A DNA stretch of 8,134 bases from NCBI GenBank assembly GCA_003696125.1, contig RFHZ01000245.1, positions 1 to 8,134 on the forward strand. The letters are read 5' to 3'. Positions 1,329-6,562 of this stretch are shown here, piece after piece (within the stretch, counting starts at the first letter, position 1; each line of letters starts with the position of its first letter). A program made the translations under genes and the position numbers. Source of the stretch: Nitrospinota bacterium (lineage in GTDB: Bacteria; Tectomicrobia; Entotheonellia; J063). A model generated the notes under the pieces. It was not told the origin of the DNA. It did not search any database and was given only the letters and a program-made list of their open reading frames with translations.

Positions 1329-2201
1329 TTACAGAGGCTTGCTATCAGCAGTGTGGGTGAGGGAGCGGAGATAGTTGACCAGATGCCAGATCTCCTCTGC
1401 CGTGAGTCTTTCTCTCAACGCCGGCATCTGTGTTCCCGGGATTCCCTCCTGAATCAACTGAAACAGGATATGATCCGGATGTTGAGGAACATGGACCACC
1501 AGATCGGCCGGTGGAGGAGAGAGGTGTGCGGCCAGGGGACCATCCCCCCGGCCAGACCCCCCGTGGCAGGGCACACAGAATTGGGCGTACAACCGCTGTC
1601 CCTGCTGTAACGAGATGGCATCTGGGGGAACAGGATTCTGCCAGTCCTCTGCTCCCGGATTCATCAGGCCGCTCGCCTGGAGTACCAGCCCGACTCCCAG
1701 GAGGATCCCAACCGTGCCAGCAAGCAAGGCCCCGCCTCCCCACCGCGTTGCCCACCCACCGAGCAACAAGCCGGAGAGCTGAAGGAGCACGCCGGCCAGT
1801 CCAACCTCGATTCCCAGCAGGGTGAAGAGCGAGGGACGAGGGGCGACCTGAAAGATGGTATGGTTTTCCGGGTGCAGGGTACAGATGTACTCGAAGGTTC
1901 CGGCACGCCGAAAGGGCTGGGAGAGGGTCTCTCCTGGCCGCACGTACAATCCTCCCACCCGATGAGGGACCTGATCCTGGTTTTGCAGGACAACGACATC
2001 ATCCACACGCAGGTGGATGGTCTGGGGAATCGCGGTGACCACCTGCCCGGCCTGCAGACGGACTGCCGTGCCTGGAGGAATGGTCAGCACTACCTGGCGG
2101 GGCTTATCGAGTATGCCTGTCCATACTCCCCAAAGCACGGCAACCAGGAGGAGGCCCCCGCTCCCCAGGCCCCACAGGCGAGAGAGCCGTGACGTGTCCA
2201 T
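1329..2201 (-). CDS. Membrane-anchored cupredoxin-cytochrome c fusion
   Basis: A 290-residue protein with two redox domains. A helix at 12-30 leads to a cupredoxin at about 36-119, with VPH (H80) and YICTLHPENH (C107, H110, H114). Two helices at about 124-148 and 157-178 bring the chain back to the periplasm. A class I cytochrome c domain follows at 195-283, with heme motif C209-VP-C212-H213 and probable axial M259 (GTQMPAL). Both domains therefore face the periplasm. It could relay electrons to or from a copper enzyme. The usual Met copper ligand is missing from the cupredoxin loop; H114 is the nearest candidate, so copper binding is uncertain. AGGAGAAG precedes the ATG. This is the last gene of the chaperone operon; no clear terminator follows. 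Confidence 0.88.
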   Translation of the reverse strand: MDTSRLSRLWGLGSGGLLLVAVLWGVWTGILDKPRQVVLTIPPGTAVRLQAGQVVTAIPQTIHLRVDDVVVLQNQDQVPHRVGGLYVRPGETLSQPFRRAGTFEYICTLHPENHTIFQVAPRPSLFTLLGIEVGLAGVLLQLSGLLLGGWATRWGGGALLAGTVGILLGVGLVLQASGLMNPGAEDWQNPVPPDAISLQQGQRLYAQFCVPCHGGSGRGDGPLAAHLSPPPADLVVHVPQHPDHILFQLIQEGIPGTQMPALRERLTAEEIWHLVNYLRSLTHTADSKPL

Positions 2202-2209
2202 CGCTTCTC

Positions 2210-2656
2210 CTAGGGCTGGCGGACCGGGACGGTGATCGTGAGGGGAGCGCTTTTCTCAAAGCGGAGCTCTACCGTCACCGTATCCCCTGGCTGGAGGTCC
2301 TGCTGCAGGTCGATCAGCATGATATGGAATCCCCCCGGTTTCAGCGTGACCTGCCCACCGGCCGGAATAGGGAGGCGCGAGACCGGCCGCATGCGCATGA
2401 TATACCCTTCCATGCGGCTCTCATGTAGCTCTACCGCCCTGGCCACCGCACTGCGGGCACCCACCAGGGCATCTGCCGTCTCGCCGGTATTGCGCAGGGT
2501 CAGGTAGAGGGCGGTGTTCATGGCACGAGAGGCCGGACGCACCCAGGGATCACGCACCTGCACTGGAGGCGATGTCCCGGCTGCAGCCGCTGTCATCGTC
2601 CAGAGGAGAATACTCATGGTCAAGAAATAGCCGATCTTTCTAAGTTGAAAGCCCAT
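2210..2656 (-). CDS. PCu(A)C family periplasmic copper chaperone
   Basis: A 148-residue exported protein (signal peptide about 1-26). It carries the complete family metal site H78-X10-M89-X21-H111-X-M113, the exact spacing known for Cu(I)-binding PCu(A)C proteins, and the typical VRDPWVRPA start and PGGFHIMLIDLQ strand. In characterised bacteria PCu(A)C hands Cu(I) to the CuA site or to SCO, so its position right behind SCO fits a shared pathway. Start choice is clear: AAAGGAGGT lies just upstream of the ATG, overlapping the end of the SCO gene. Its TAG stop lies within the Shine-Dalgarno region of the next gene, eight bases away, so the two are likely coupled. Confidence 0.95.
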   Translation of the reverse strand: MGFQLRKIGYFLTMSILLWTMTAAAAGTSPPVQVRDPWVRPASRAMNTALYLTLRNTGETADALVGARSAVARAVELHESRMEGYIMRMRPVSRLPIPAGGQVTLKPGGFHIMLIDLQQDLQPGDTVTVELRFEKSAPLTITVPVRQP

Positions 2657-2659
2657 TGC

Positions 2660-3352
2660 TTACCTCCTTTGCTCTTGATGGAGCATGTACGCAATATCGT
2701 TGACGATGTCCTGGGGAGCGGTGCCAAAGGCAAAGAGGAGACGGAGCTGTCGGTGCCGGTCGACCAGGTACAGGAAGGAGGAGTGCGCCACCAGATAGCC
2801 GGTGGCACTCCCCTGGATTTTTTCGCGTTGGGCATAGACGCCAAACGCTTTCCAGATCGGCTGCAACACCGCTCGATCCCCGGTCAGGCCGATAAACGCC
2901 GGATCAAAAGCGGCTAGACGTTGCTGTAACGCCTCGGGCGTGTCCCGCTCCGGATCGACCGTGATCATGAAGAAGGTGACGGCACTTGCCTGCTCTCCCA
3001 GCAGCCGCTTGACTTTCACCATATCGGCCAGGGTCATGGGACACACATCTGGACAGGAGGTGTAGCCGAAATAGAGGAGGTTGAGGGTATTGAGCCGGGC
3101 ACCAAAGGGGAAAGGCCGTCCCTGCTGATCGATGAGCACAAAATCGGGAATGGGACGGGGAGGGGTGACGAGAGTCCCGGTGAAGGTATGGGCCGCACGA
3201 GACGGCCGGTGTTTCCAGAGCCAGAGGCCCAGTACAGACCCCAGGAGAACAAGGCTTCCCAGGAGGAGCACACCCAGGCGGCGTTTCTGCAGGAGCAATT
3301 TTTTCTCTCCCACGGTTACAGGTTGCCTCGCTACGTTTTCTTTTGACATCAT
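2660..3352 (-). CDS. SCO1/SenC/PrrC copper chaperone and thiol-disulfide protein
   Basis: A 230-residue membrane-anchored protein with a thioredoxin fold facing the periplasm. A helix at about 26-46 is followed by the SCO domain (60-228). The copper and redox site is complete: C100-PDV-C104-P within FGYTSCPDVCP, and the distal ligand H190 in LVAHSS. DPERDTPE (133-140) and the FIGLTGD stretch are typical of the family. SCO proteins help metallate CuA of cytochrome oxidase and related sites, and reduce its cysteines. The first two codons are both ATG (3352 and 3349); GGAGGAAGG lies upstream inside the end of the Cox11-fusion gene, whose TAA directly abuts the first ATG, so translational coupling is likely. 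The SCO stop TAA falls three bases before the PCu(A)C start, next to that gene's Shine-Dalgarno. Confidence 0.95.
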   Translation of the reverse strand: MMSKENVARQPVTVGEKKLLLQKRRLGVLLLGSLVLLGSVLGLWLWKHRPSRAAHTFTGTLVTPPRPIPDFVLIDQQGRPFPFGARLNTLNLLYFGYTSCPDVCPMTLADMVKVKRLLGEQASAVTFFMITVDPERDTPEALQQRLAAFDPAFIGLTGDRAVLQPIWKAFGVYAQREKIQGSATGYLVAHSSFLYLVDRHRQLRLLFAFGTAPQDIVNDIAYMLHQEQRR

Positions 3353-4795
3353 TTAACGTCCTTCCTCCCTGAGAGGCGATGATCCGGTGGTCTCTATGCG
3401 TTGCACCGAGACGTTGCGGATATGCAGTGCATAAGGATATTGCCCTCCATGTTCACGCACATCCAGGAGCACGAAGTCAACGGTCAGCACCGTGGTCTCC
3501 CCTGGCGTGATCTGGAAGGTGCGGGCAACCGGCGCATCTTGCACGGTGATGCGCACCGGTTTTCCACTGTTCAGTACCCCGTGGACGCTTTCGAGATGGA
3601 GCTTGAGCCAGCGATAGGTACCGACCGGGACCTGTTGGTGAAGGATGACCGCGTACCGGCCATCGACGAGTCGGGTGAGATCCACGTCCTGGACGGTGGG
3701 AGCCAATCCTAGCCAGGCACCGGCCTTCGGTCGCGTCCCTCGCTGAATATTGATCTGCGAGATGGAGAGCACGAGTCGGCGAAAATCGGTAATCGCCTCC
3801 CGATGATCCTGCACCCGCACCTCGAGCCAGCCGAACTCCAGGGCGCCGAGTTGCTGCGCTTCCCGGTCAGGTTCTGGTCCGGGAAAGGCCTCGATCGGAT
3901 AAAATGCGTAACGAATGGTGAAATGGGTGACGGTTTCAGGGGCATCCCATCGCACGCGAAAGGTCAAAGGCAGCTCTTTCTCCTCACCCGGTTCGAGTGT
4001 GGTCTGCAGGAAGCAGAAGCACTGGATGATCTCCAGATACTGGGCCTGATCCTGGGGAGCAATGCGATGGATCGCTTTGGCCGTTACCGGATGGTCAGAG
4101 AGGTTTTTGACCCGATAGACGGCGTGCAGCGTTTCACCAGGGAGGGCCAGGACTTCTTTCTGCACCGGCCAGAACCGCCAGGGGAGATGCTCCTTGACCG
4201 CAGCGACAAATTGCACCCGGATGGCACCAGCCCAGTTGAGAAACACCCGCCATCCTGCTGGCTCTTTCACCAATTCCCACGTGTCCTCCCCCGCGATCAT
4301 CGGAAGACGCTCTGCCCGGTACAGCGCATCCAGTCGGGTTTTTATCGCCTCCCGTTCGGGCGGAGACAAGCGGGCAAGCCGCTCAGCATCGAAATCACGC
4401 ACCAGTCGTCGCACGGCAGGCGCATTGGCATTGGGAATCCGGAAGGCGAGGGTCACCGTGGCCCGATCGCCGTGGATCTCGGTATGCCTTTCCTGATACG
4501 TGATCAAGGTAGCGAGTTTTTGCGCCAGCTCGCGGGCAGGTCCCTCCCAAGGGGGATTTTCTCTCAGATACTCCTCCTGACTCTTCCACTGTCTATCCTG
4601 TGAGGAGATGAGCATATAAGCCCGGTGTGAGTCCCGGGTGTACAGGGCATGCAGATAGTGGGTTAAGACGATCCAAGGCTCCTCTGGTGGCTGACCGGCC
4701 TGTCCCGGCAAGGGAAGAGCCGCCAGCAGGCCGAAGACCCACCCGCTCAGGACGATGATCGTGAAGAGAGATACTGTACGCCATGGCTGCACCAT
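3353..4795 (-). CDS. Three-domain protein with Cox11/CtaG copper-chaperone core
   Basis: A 480-residue exported protein. Residues 7-30 form a signal or anchor helix. Residues 38-190 look like an NTF2-like (DUF4878-type) domain ending in WELVKEPAGWRVFLNW. Residues 193-302 match Cox11/CtaG: VQFVAAVKEHLPWRFWP, then PGETLHAVYRVKN, the diagnostic IQCFCF with C259 and C261, a PGEEKELPLTF strand, and a closing ITHFTIRYAFYPIE-like stretch. Residues 332-465 resemble DUF4382 (SQINIQRG, VPVGTYRWLKLHLES, TTVLTVDF). Cox11 delivers Cu(I) to the CuB site of heme-copper oxidases. Normal bacterial Cox11 is about 190 residues with one helix directly before the domain and a third conserved cysteine there; that cysteine is absent here. 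The stop TAA abuts the SCO start with no gap. The Cox11 core is a firm call, the flanking domains less so. Confidence 0.82.
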   Translation of the reverse strand: MVQPWRTVSLFTIIVLSGWVFGLLAALPLPGQAGQPPEEPWIVLTHYLHALYTRDSHRAYMLISSQDRQWKSQEEYLRENPPWEGPARELAQKLATLITYQERHTEIHGDRATVTLAFRIPNANAPAVRRLVRDFDAERLARLSPPEREAIKTRLDALYRAERLPMIAGEDTWELVKEPAGWRVFLNWAGAIRVQFVAAVKEHLPWRFWPVQKEVLALPGETLHAVYRVKNLSDHPVTAKAIHRIAPQDQAQYLEIIQCFCFLQTTLEPGEEKELPLTFRVRWDAPETVTHFTIRYAFYPIEAFPGPEPDREAQQLGALEFGWLEVRVQDHREAITDFRRLVLSISQINIQRGTRPKAGAWLGLAPTVQDVDLTRLVDGRYAVILHQQVPVGTYRWLKLHLESVHGVLNSGKPVRITVQDAPVARTFQITPGETTVLTVDFVLLDVREHGGQYPYALHIRNVSVQRIETTGSSPLREEGR

Positions 4796-4890: not shown

Positions 4891-5325
4891 TTAGGCTGGA
4901 GACAAAGGGAAGAACAACTGCGGAGGGTGGTCCAGGACGACGCGGTACCCGGTGGCCCGGCAGGTCGTGTCTCCACCGGTTATCCGTTGACTGCTCAGAA
5001 GGAAGGGAGAAGGCCGGGACGGGAGTATCCATAGATCAGAGTCAGGCGCAGTCTTTCCGATGCCGTGCCCGGTCCCAGACGGGGAAAGCGTATAGGATGG
5101 GAACACCTGACCGGCTTGAGAGGAAAGGATGCGTTGCGCATGATCGCCGTAGATATTATACCAGACCAGCGATCCATCAGGGCGGAGTACGGCCCGATGC
5201 TGATGCGGTTGTGGCTGCAGTCCTCGCTCGGCAACGCAATGCGTGTGGGGAGGAGGGAGGAGCATTCCCCAGGGGAAGAGGTGGAGCAAAAGGAGGACCC
5301 CTCCCGCCAGTAGTCCTTTGTGCAT
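4891..5325 (-). CDS. Small secreted His-containing protein, function unknown
   Basis: A 144-residue protein I do not recognise. The first 24 residues are a strong signal sequence. The mature part opens with a potential metal-binding stretch: H27-x-H29-C30, then H41-x-H43. A second cysteine, C122, could pair with C30. There is no further membrane segment. The start is well fixed: an in-frame TAG lies two codons upstream of the ATG, and AAGGA precedes it at sensible spacing. It is the first gene after the strong promoter and leads the copper-chaperone operon, separated by 95 bp from the Cox11 fusion. Export, His pairs and context suggest a periplasmic copper-related role, which is inference. 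An overlapping 130-codon frame (5387-4995) looks like a shadow. Confidence 0.6.
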   Translation of the reverse strand: MHKGLLAGGVLLLLHLFPWGMLLPPPHTHCVAERGLQPQPHQHRAVLRPDGSLVWYNIYGDHAQRILSSQAGQVFPSYTLSPSGTGHGIGKTAPDSDLWILPSRPSPFLLSSQRITGGDTTCRATGYRVVLDHPPQLFFPLSPA

Positions 5326-5596: not shown

Positions 5597-5971
5597 CTAG
5601 CGAGGCAGGACCTCCAGGTAGAGGAGAGGGATCTCCTGCTGGTCCCCGGCAGCCGGGAGGTTTCCAAAGGCATGGGCGGTGATCGGATAGCGTCCGGTTG
5701 CGTACGCCTGGAAGGTAAATACGCTGGATACCCCCGGTTTCACCACCTGCTCGATATCATACCCGTGCAGGTGAATGGTGACCGTCTCGTCCGTCATCCA
5801 CCAGAGGGTGACCCGGTCCCCCTGCTTTACCCGGAGCACATCCATATCTCCCTGGACGGCACGGTTACGGATATTGATGGTGAAGCTCTGCTCTTCCGAC
5901 CCGGTACCCGGGCAGCCGGTGAGCCATGCGGCCAGCACAAGGAGGCAGAGTCCAGACCAGAATACGCGCAT
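5597..5971 (-). CDS. Cupredoxin-like lipoprotein lacking a copper-binding cysteine
   Basis: A 124-residue exported lipoprotein: hydrophobic N-terminus, then lipobox LTGC with C20 as the lipidated cysteine. The mature part (about 30-124) reads as one cupredoxin beta-sandwich with the HLHGYD segment (H67, H69), a GRYPITAH strand (H100) and a YLEVLPR end. True type 1 blue-copper proteins need a cysteine in the C-terminal loop. Here the only cysteines are C9 in the signal peptide and C20 at the lipid site, so a blue centre is impossible. Copper binding by His alone, or a structural role, are the options left. A GGGGA Shine-Dalgarno precedes the ATG. It is the last gene of the right-hand group and is followed by a promoter for the next unit. 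Confidence 0.75.
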   Translation of the reverse strand: MRVFWSGLCLLVLAAWLTGCPGTGSEEQSFTINIRNRAVQGDMDVLRVKQGDRVTLWWMTDETVTIHLHGYDIEQVVKPGVSSVFTFQAYATGRYPITAHAFGNLPAAGDQQEIPLLYLEVLPR

Positions 5972-5983
5972 GGGTGTCCCCTG

Positions 5984-6562
5984 TCAGGCAGGTCTTTGCC
6001 GCTGCTTGATCACCCGGACCGTGGCCAGGAGCGCAAGAATCAGGAGGAGATATCCCCCCAGGACCACCTGAGGGGGGAGGGGCTGGTGGGCAGCATTTTT
6101 GTCCATCTTCAGGATCGTTTCATCGGTCATGACCCGGGCTGATGCCGGCATGGTCCCCATACCAGGTGCCGGCGTCTTCCCCGGTGTAGGAGCCATCACA
6201 TGGACCATGTACTGCCGGAAATCCAGCTCGTTCCGATGCTCGACCTCTACCCGCATCTTCCACATGCCCGGTTGGGGAAAGGAGATGGTTCCCAGGTATT
6301 CACCGGCCTGCTCGGTGGCCTTGGCCGTATAGATGAGCTGTTTTCCCTGGTCATTGCTCAGCACGATCTTGATCTTAGCTCCTAAAACCGGTATGCCGGC
6401 ATTCGATCCCTGCAGGTGGATGCGGAGCGTGGCCTCTTCCTTGACCCTGGGCATACCCGGCTGCATGGTCAGCTTCATCAAGGGGGGATCGGTATGGGCA
6501 AAGACCCATAGGGGCATCCCGGCCCAGAGGATGAGGATTGCTATCTTGTGCCAGCCTTTCAT
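5984..6562 (-). CDS. YtkA/FixH-like membrane-anchored periplasmic protein
   Basis: A 192-residue protein with a signal peptide (cleavage likely after VFA, residue 22), a beta-rich domain at about 28-122, a Pro/Met-rich linker at 123-160 and a C-terminal membrane helix at about 165-185 followed by a basic cytoplasmic tail. The domain pattern (PGMP start, then PVLGAKI, GEYLGTISF, PGMWKMRVEV) resembles the YtkA-like/FixH immunoglobulin-type fold, often found near copper and cytochrome oxidase assembly genes. There is no catalytic motif. Met and His in the linker (M123, M135, M138, M145, M153, H159) could bind Cu(I), which is inference. The start is supported by GGAGGAGA just upstream of the ATG. 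It sits between the polyferredoxin (9 bp) and the cupredoxin lipoprotein (12 bp), so it is probably cotranscribed with both. Confidence 0.72.
   Translation of the reverse strand: MKGWHKIAILILWAGMPLWVFAHTDPPLMKLTMQPGMPRVKEEATLRIHLQGSNAGIPVLGAKIKIVLSNDQGKQLIYTAKATEQAGEYLGTISFPQPGMWKMRVEVEHRNELDFRQYMVHVMAPTPGKTPAPGMGTMPASARVMTDETILKMDKNAAHQPLPPQVVLGGYLLLILALLATVRVIKQRQRPA

Follow-up and report, generated by a model that had tools for sequence, protein, structure and literature searches.

A rare Cox11 variant with NTF2-like and DUF4382 domains in an uncultured Entotheonella-class bacterium

The way in which Cox11 hands copper over to CuB is unsettled, as is the purpose of its membrane helix and of its third cysteine (PMC6696091; PMC9232578). 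Cox11 is a dimer with a membrane-facing Cu2S4 cluster, and the third cysteine, located just above the membrane, joins in the transfer to COX1 (PMC6696091; PMC9232578). A gene from an uncultured Entotheonella-class bacterium bears on this question. A preliminary description of the locus had proposed that it encodes a Cox11 core in the middle of a longer protein, with an NTF2-like region in front and a DUF4382-like region behind, deprived of the adjacent helix and of the third cysteine, and thus taking copper differently or serving a different client. Is this protein a genuine form of Cox11, and does it still load CuB? The window, i.e. the whole stretch of DNA that was analysed (8,134 nucleotides), contains the gene together with several genes for copper proteins (Table 1). 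Its open reading frame begins with an ATG preceded by a GGGAG ribosome-binding-like site.

Table 1. Features of the window, in coordinates of the analysed stretch, with the parts of the three-domain protein listed below the genes.
Feature	Coordinates	Strand	Evidence or remark
Cupredoxin-like + cytochrome c protein	1329..2201	(-)	PF13442 E=3.7e-12, weak PF00127
PCuAC copper chaperone, motif HX10MX21HXM	2210..2656	(-)	PF04314 E=3.9e-39
SCO1/SenC	2660..3352	(-)	PF02630 E=1.1e-39
Three-domain Cox11 protein (NTF2-like + Cox11 + DUF4382)	3353..4795	(-)	480 aa
Cupredoxin-like lipoprotein, upstream of the Cox11 gene	5597..5971	(-)	PF13473 E=6e-6, 0.3 bits under cut-off
YtkA/FixH-like membrane protein	5984..6562	(-)	PF13115 E=4.8e-5, just under cut-off
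Membrane polyferredoxin, NapH-like (distant), reaching the contig end	6572..8134	(-)	TIGR02163 E=5.5e-6, below cut-off
N-terminal hydrophobic segment, residues about 8-28 (signal peptide or signal anchor)	4712..4774	(-)	
NTF2-like domain, residues about 38-188	4232..4684	(-)	Fold match to 3k7c and other NTF2-like domains
Cox11 domain, residues 191-299	3899..4225	(-)	PF04442 and 1so9 matches
CFCF copper-binding motif, residues 259-262	4010..4021	(-)	CxC invariant in the family
DUF4382 domain, residues 324-443, SCO-linked subfamily	3467..3826	(-)	PF14321

The three parts of the protein were recovered where the preliminary description had placed them. The PF04442 (CtaG_Cox11) profile matches the middle region with E=7.1e-30 (104.5 bits, cut-off 25), and Cox11/CtaG of S. 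meliloti (PDB 1so9/1sp0) comes first both by profile and by fold: 1so9 was matched at E=4.9e-30 by the profile of a three-row family alignment, and was the top Foldseek match for both AlphaFold2 models of the protein (E=7e-6 and 2.5e-8), which are of modest confidence (mean pLDDT 51 and 61). Like the S. meliloti protein, the window protein has the Ig-like copper domain with CFCF, and the Foldseek alignments give 41–44% identity to 1so9. The NCBI Cox11 equivalog model NF003465 scored 118 bits, under its cut-off of 162. The C-terminal region is matched by PF14321 (DUF4382) with E=2.2e-11 (44.5 bits, cut-off 25). Nothing in the N-terminal 190 residues scored above the Pfam cut-off, and the assignment of this region comes from its predicted structure: model residues 38–187 align to NTF2-like domains, the best being 3k7c (Z 8.7 over 105 residues, rmsd 3.9). 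Many such alignments were obtained, with Z of 7.3–8.7 over about 100 residues; middling Z values of this kind are common, and the confidence of the model is middling as well (pLDDT mostly 55–87 in this region), so these alignments are no more than supportive. Homologues also gave weak matches to MecA_N, which is NTF2-like, and to DUF4864. The window protein thus differs from Cox11/CtaG by an added NTF2-like domain of about 150 residues in front and by DUF4382 behind. We rejected the possibility that the window protein alone has the N-terminal domain, the module being also found at the head of unrelated lipoproteins (L024, L027, L029 and L030, E down to 3e-20), which carry DUF3426/DUF2393-like tails and no Cox11 domain.

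To define the distribution of this format, 386 genomes spread over the domain were searched with PF04442 and with a profile of the NTF2 and Cox11 parts. PF04442 was matched in eight genomes, by three short proteins (frames of 177–205 aa, aligned from profile position 1 or 2) and by five long ones, aligned only from positions 33–35. The NTF2+Cox11 profile was likewise matched in five of the 386 genomes, over nearly its whole length: the window genome, two uncultured Candidatus Entotheonella sp. of the same class (G001 and G002; OX639990.1 and OY282375.1) and a pair from another small phylum (G101 and G367). The four relatives share 43–52% identity with the window protein as well as the N-terminal signal, the NTF2-like and Cox11 parts and the residue losses described below, but they are 318–324 aa long and devoid of DUF4382; only the window genome yielded the three-domain form. 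In a 349-genome sample of the large phylum around G286, which we infer to be Pseudomonadota, matches occurred in 178 genomes, and none of those listed includes the NTF2 part, all starting at model position 198 or later. Among genome contigs, a single-sequence search returned no relative of the window protein and an alignment-based search returned two Entotheonella records only; viral contigs gave no match, and plasmids gave only matches to the Cox11 domain, which spanned no more than a third of the query, and none to DUF4382. The architecture is thus far from common, and neither the NTF2-Cox11 nor the three-domain format was found described in the literature searched. In a tree of Cox11 domains, the five NTF2-Cox11 proteins form one clade (support 100/98, recovered in 200 of 200 bootstrap trees), within which the window sequence is nearest to those of G101 and G367, with 58% identity in the domain. 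We conclude that the window protein is a real, rare variant of Cox11 and not a new kind of system. A 2022 review places Cox11 in alpha-, beta- and gamma-Proteobacteria and in eukaryotes (PMC9145763), a range that is widened by its occurrence in the Entotheonella class. The notion that all members of this class use Cox11 was rejected, since two of them, G003 and G004, have none.

To see which features these proteins have lost, we set all five of them against 23 short Cox11 proteins of other genomes. The PF04442 match of the window protein spans positions 34–147 of the 148 of the profile, the first 33 being missing, and no membrane helix directly precedes the Cox11 domain. The N-terminal hydrophobic segment sits about 160 residues away; it has a Kyte-Doolittle maximum of 2.2 for the 19-residue stretch from residue 8, corresponds to a helix at residues 10–26 of the predicted model, and is the only strong segment of the protein. 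Its equivalent in the Entotheonella class-mates is a typical cleavable signal peptide ending in AxA. In all 23 short proteins, a cysteine stands right after the N-terminal hydrophobic segment, about 89–97 residues ahead of CFCF (for example in the context PLYRMFCQ.TG). This third cysteine is absent from all five NTF2-Cox11 proteins, which do keep the CxC, and cysteines 259 and 261 are the only ones of the window protein. Both absences noted in the preliminary description, of the adjacent helix and of the third cysteine, were therefore verified, and a third was added to them: the position three residues before CFCF, a lysine in most short Cox11 proteins, is an isoleucine in all five. In yeast Cox11, Lys-205 and three cysteines were reported as essential for CuB insertion (PMC9172173). 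The lysine is less diagnostic than the cysteine, because it is also missing from two of the 23 short proteins (L074 and L077). These two, which retain the third cysteine, stand on a very long branch of the tree (2.4 changes per site).

It is reasonable to suppose that the protein may take copper differently. Loss of essential residues might also mean that it is a degenerate Cox11, or a moonlighting one, whose main task is thiol or copper stress protection and not metal insertion; a redox role is proposed for plant and yeast COX11 in one report (PMC8682889). We regard this as improbable, given the strict conservation of CFCF and of most of the core at 43–52% identity, even between phyla, and the place of the window gene in a copper-site assembly unit.

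This unit is tightly packed. The stop codon of the Cox11 gene and the start codon of the SCO gene abut (TAA ATG, 0 bp), SCO being endowed with its CxxxC; 3 bp separate SCO from PCuAC, and 8 bp separate PCuAC from the cupredoxin-cytochrome c gene, the Cox11 gene heading the series. Further upstream, beyond the cupredoxin-like lipoprotein and YtkA/FixH-like genes, comes the polyferredoxin gene, with which the copper gene unit starts. The interval separating the Cox11 gene from the cupredoxin gene contains a possible further gene, a 144-aa ORF (4891-5325) with a signal-like N-terminus that matches no family. The surroundings are different in the relatives: the Entotheonella NTF2-Cox11 gene adjoins a cytochrome c gene, and there are no copper genes beside it in G101 and G367. 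In both Entotheonella genomes, it is also adjoined by genes for Cys-rich proteins with NPCNPCNPC repeats (L012:9870-10745 and L013:9998-11059), which do not occur in the window.

The presence of DUF4382 in this protein can be related to its neighbour in the class. In G001, G002 and G003, DUF4382 is a separate gene (180–236 aa) with SCO as the next gene, and the free proteins of G001 and G002 are lipoproteins. SCO also comes directly after the fused DUF4382 of the window. This gene order indicates that a DUF4382 gene standing before SCO, as in the class-mates, was fused to Cox11 in the window genome, and that Cox11 was thereby joined to a protein which gene order had already linked with SCO. 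The window domain shares 32–38% identity with its free SCO-adjacent counterparts, from which it differs by being fused to Cox11 and having no signal of its own. The four sequences have in common a DHR motif, where ordinary DUF4382 has DAP-like residues, and an insert with an invariant histidine; in the window protein the invariant histidines are His331 and His449, the latter just beyond the Pfam match. Strong matches to this subfamily are confined to the class, in four of its five genomes. Elsewhere, DUF4382 matches were weak (E 3e-6 or worse), had neither the DHR motif nor the insert with its histidine in the aligned parts, and revealed no link with SCO outside Entotheonellia; the window genome itself has one more DUF4382, which belongs to an ordinary 583-aa lipoprotein. 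The domain has no solved relative by sequence and was modelled at pLDDT under 50. A literature search found no connection of DUF4382 to copper, and we know of no role for it in copper handling; its fusion to Cox11 provides a first functional lead for a subfamily of DUF4382. Of the window cassette, only SCO, DUF4382 and the YtkA/FixH-like gene recur in G003, where a distant relative of the YtkA/FixH-like protein (25% identity over 97 aa) adjoins DUF4382-SCO. That genome has no Cox11, and its genes for DUF4382, SCO, the YtkA/FixH-like protein and Caa3_CtaG are clustered (L016:9122-11786), the last two coming after SCO.

As DUF4382 is a separate gene in the relatives, and the window genome is a 4.18-Mb bin of 990 contigs with 8% contamination, we considered that the three-domain protein could be an artefact, either an assembly chimera or two genes joined by a lost stop codon. 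This seems very unlikely, as judged from the codon pattern and the conserved DUF4382-SCO order. The two domains share a single reading frame, and neither third-position GC nor the codon-position pattern shifts anywhere along the ORF, the junction included, indicating that it is coding throughout. The succession of DUF4382 and SCO is that of the relatives, and the short linker and the disappearance of the lipoprotein signal of free DUF4382 are as in a real fusion. Moreover, the NTF2+Cox11 half is present in four other genomes, two of which are single-contig.

Assigning a client requires consideration of the oxidases. Two other contigs of the window genome carry caa3-type oxidase genes, with CoxA in two pieces at contig ends: the first carries CoxB fused to cytochrome c and the start of CoxA, the second the end of CoxA, subunit IV, CoxC and, directly after CoxC, Caa3_CtaG (PF09678). 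Caa3_CtaG, a multi-span membrane protein unrelated to the window Cox11, is also thought to serve CuB assembly, so the window genome may have two CuB factors. This leaves room for a different client, as the preliminary description had suggested: the protein would be a periplasmic copper carrier for the CuA/SCO step, for the cupredoxin-cytochrome c or cupredoxin lipoprotein of its operon or for another cuproprotein, CuB being loaded by Caa3_CtaG. Such a role would fit the loss of the helix, third cysteine and lysine on which the known CuB function depends, as well as the position of the gene among CuA chaperones and cupredoxins instead of oxidase subunits, and the case of G003, which has DUF4382-SCO and Caa3_CtaG but no Cox11. 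However, G001, G002, G101 and G367 each have NTF2-Cox11 and about four COX1-family matches (one of the four being weak in G001 and G002) and are devoid of Caa3_CtaG, which makes NTF2-Cox11 their only known CuB chaperone; the lack of adjoining copper genes in G101 and G367 also speaks against this reading. A different client is therefore not favoured for the group. For the window genome, where Caa3_CtaG is present, we hold it to be a possible, though rather doubtful, reading.

We thus favour, with some reservation, CuB delivery to an aa3-type oxidase by a Cu(I) chaperone of the Cox11 family that has a lineage-specific, largely periplasmic format. It is the likeliest role because, in four of the five genomes, heme-copper oxidases occur with NTF2-Cox11 as the sole known CuB chaperone, and it agrees with the clear Cox11 core with CFCF, the SCO/PCuAC gene unit, the caa3-type oxidase genes of the window genome, the link of DUF4382 with SCO and the grouping of the proteins in one clade; the window protein probably still does the known Cox11 job. 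Besides the lost cysteine and lysine, the Caa3_CtaG gene of the window oxidase cluster and the absence of any known copper role for DUF4382, two observations weigh against CuB delivery. The NTF2-Cox11 gene is beside oxidase subunit genes in none of the five genomes examined, and G004 has COX1 matches with neither Cox11 nor Caa3_CtaG, so that the class does not strictly require a chaperone of either kind.

In the pathway that we propose for CuB delivery, the N-terminal signal would export the protein, perhaps being cleaved, and the protein would work in the periplasm. The NTF2-like domain would replace the membrane stalk, setting the distance, and might keep two Cox11 domains paired. In each Cox11 domain, the CFCF pair would hold Cu(I), probably obtained from the PCuAC and/or SCO of its own gene unit; in R. 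sphaeroides, Sco and Cox11 receive copper from PCuAC (PMC9145763). Cu(I) would then be passed to CuB of subunit I of the aa3-type oxidase via CFCF alone, while the DUF4382 domain could tie Cox11 to SCO or to subunit II, coupling the CuA and CuB steps. Cox11 binds both subunit I and subunit II and may serve as a scaffold, binding to subunit II being known in Paracoccus and in human cells (PMC5249081; PMC9232578), so a DUF4382 arm that bound SCO or subunit II would fit known contacts. More speculatively, NTF2-Cox11 might constitute a distinct class of CuB chaperones needing neither the membrane-proximal helix nor the third cysteine, and DUF4382, with its two invariant histidines, an unrecognised copper-site assembly factor of this lineage, the fusion physically coupling SCO-dependent CuA loading to Cox11-dependent CuB loading; we put this forward only tentatively. 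A natural Cox11 clade without helix and third cysteine, which is the sole known CuB chaperone in some genomes, offers a soluble test protein for the question of copper hand-over.

At the other end of the window, positions 36-1172 encode a 378-aa secreted protein that neither Pfam nor NCBIfam matches. Another contig of the genome carries part of a second copy, beside a substrate-binding protein of branched-chain-amino-acid type, and a relative with 48% identity is found in an unrelated genome amid ABC transporter genes of the same type.
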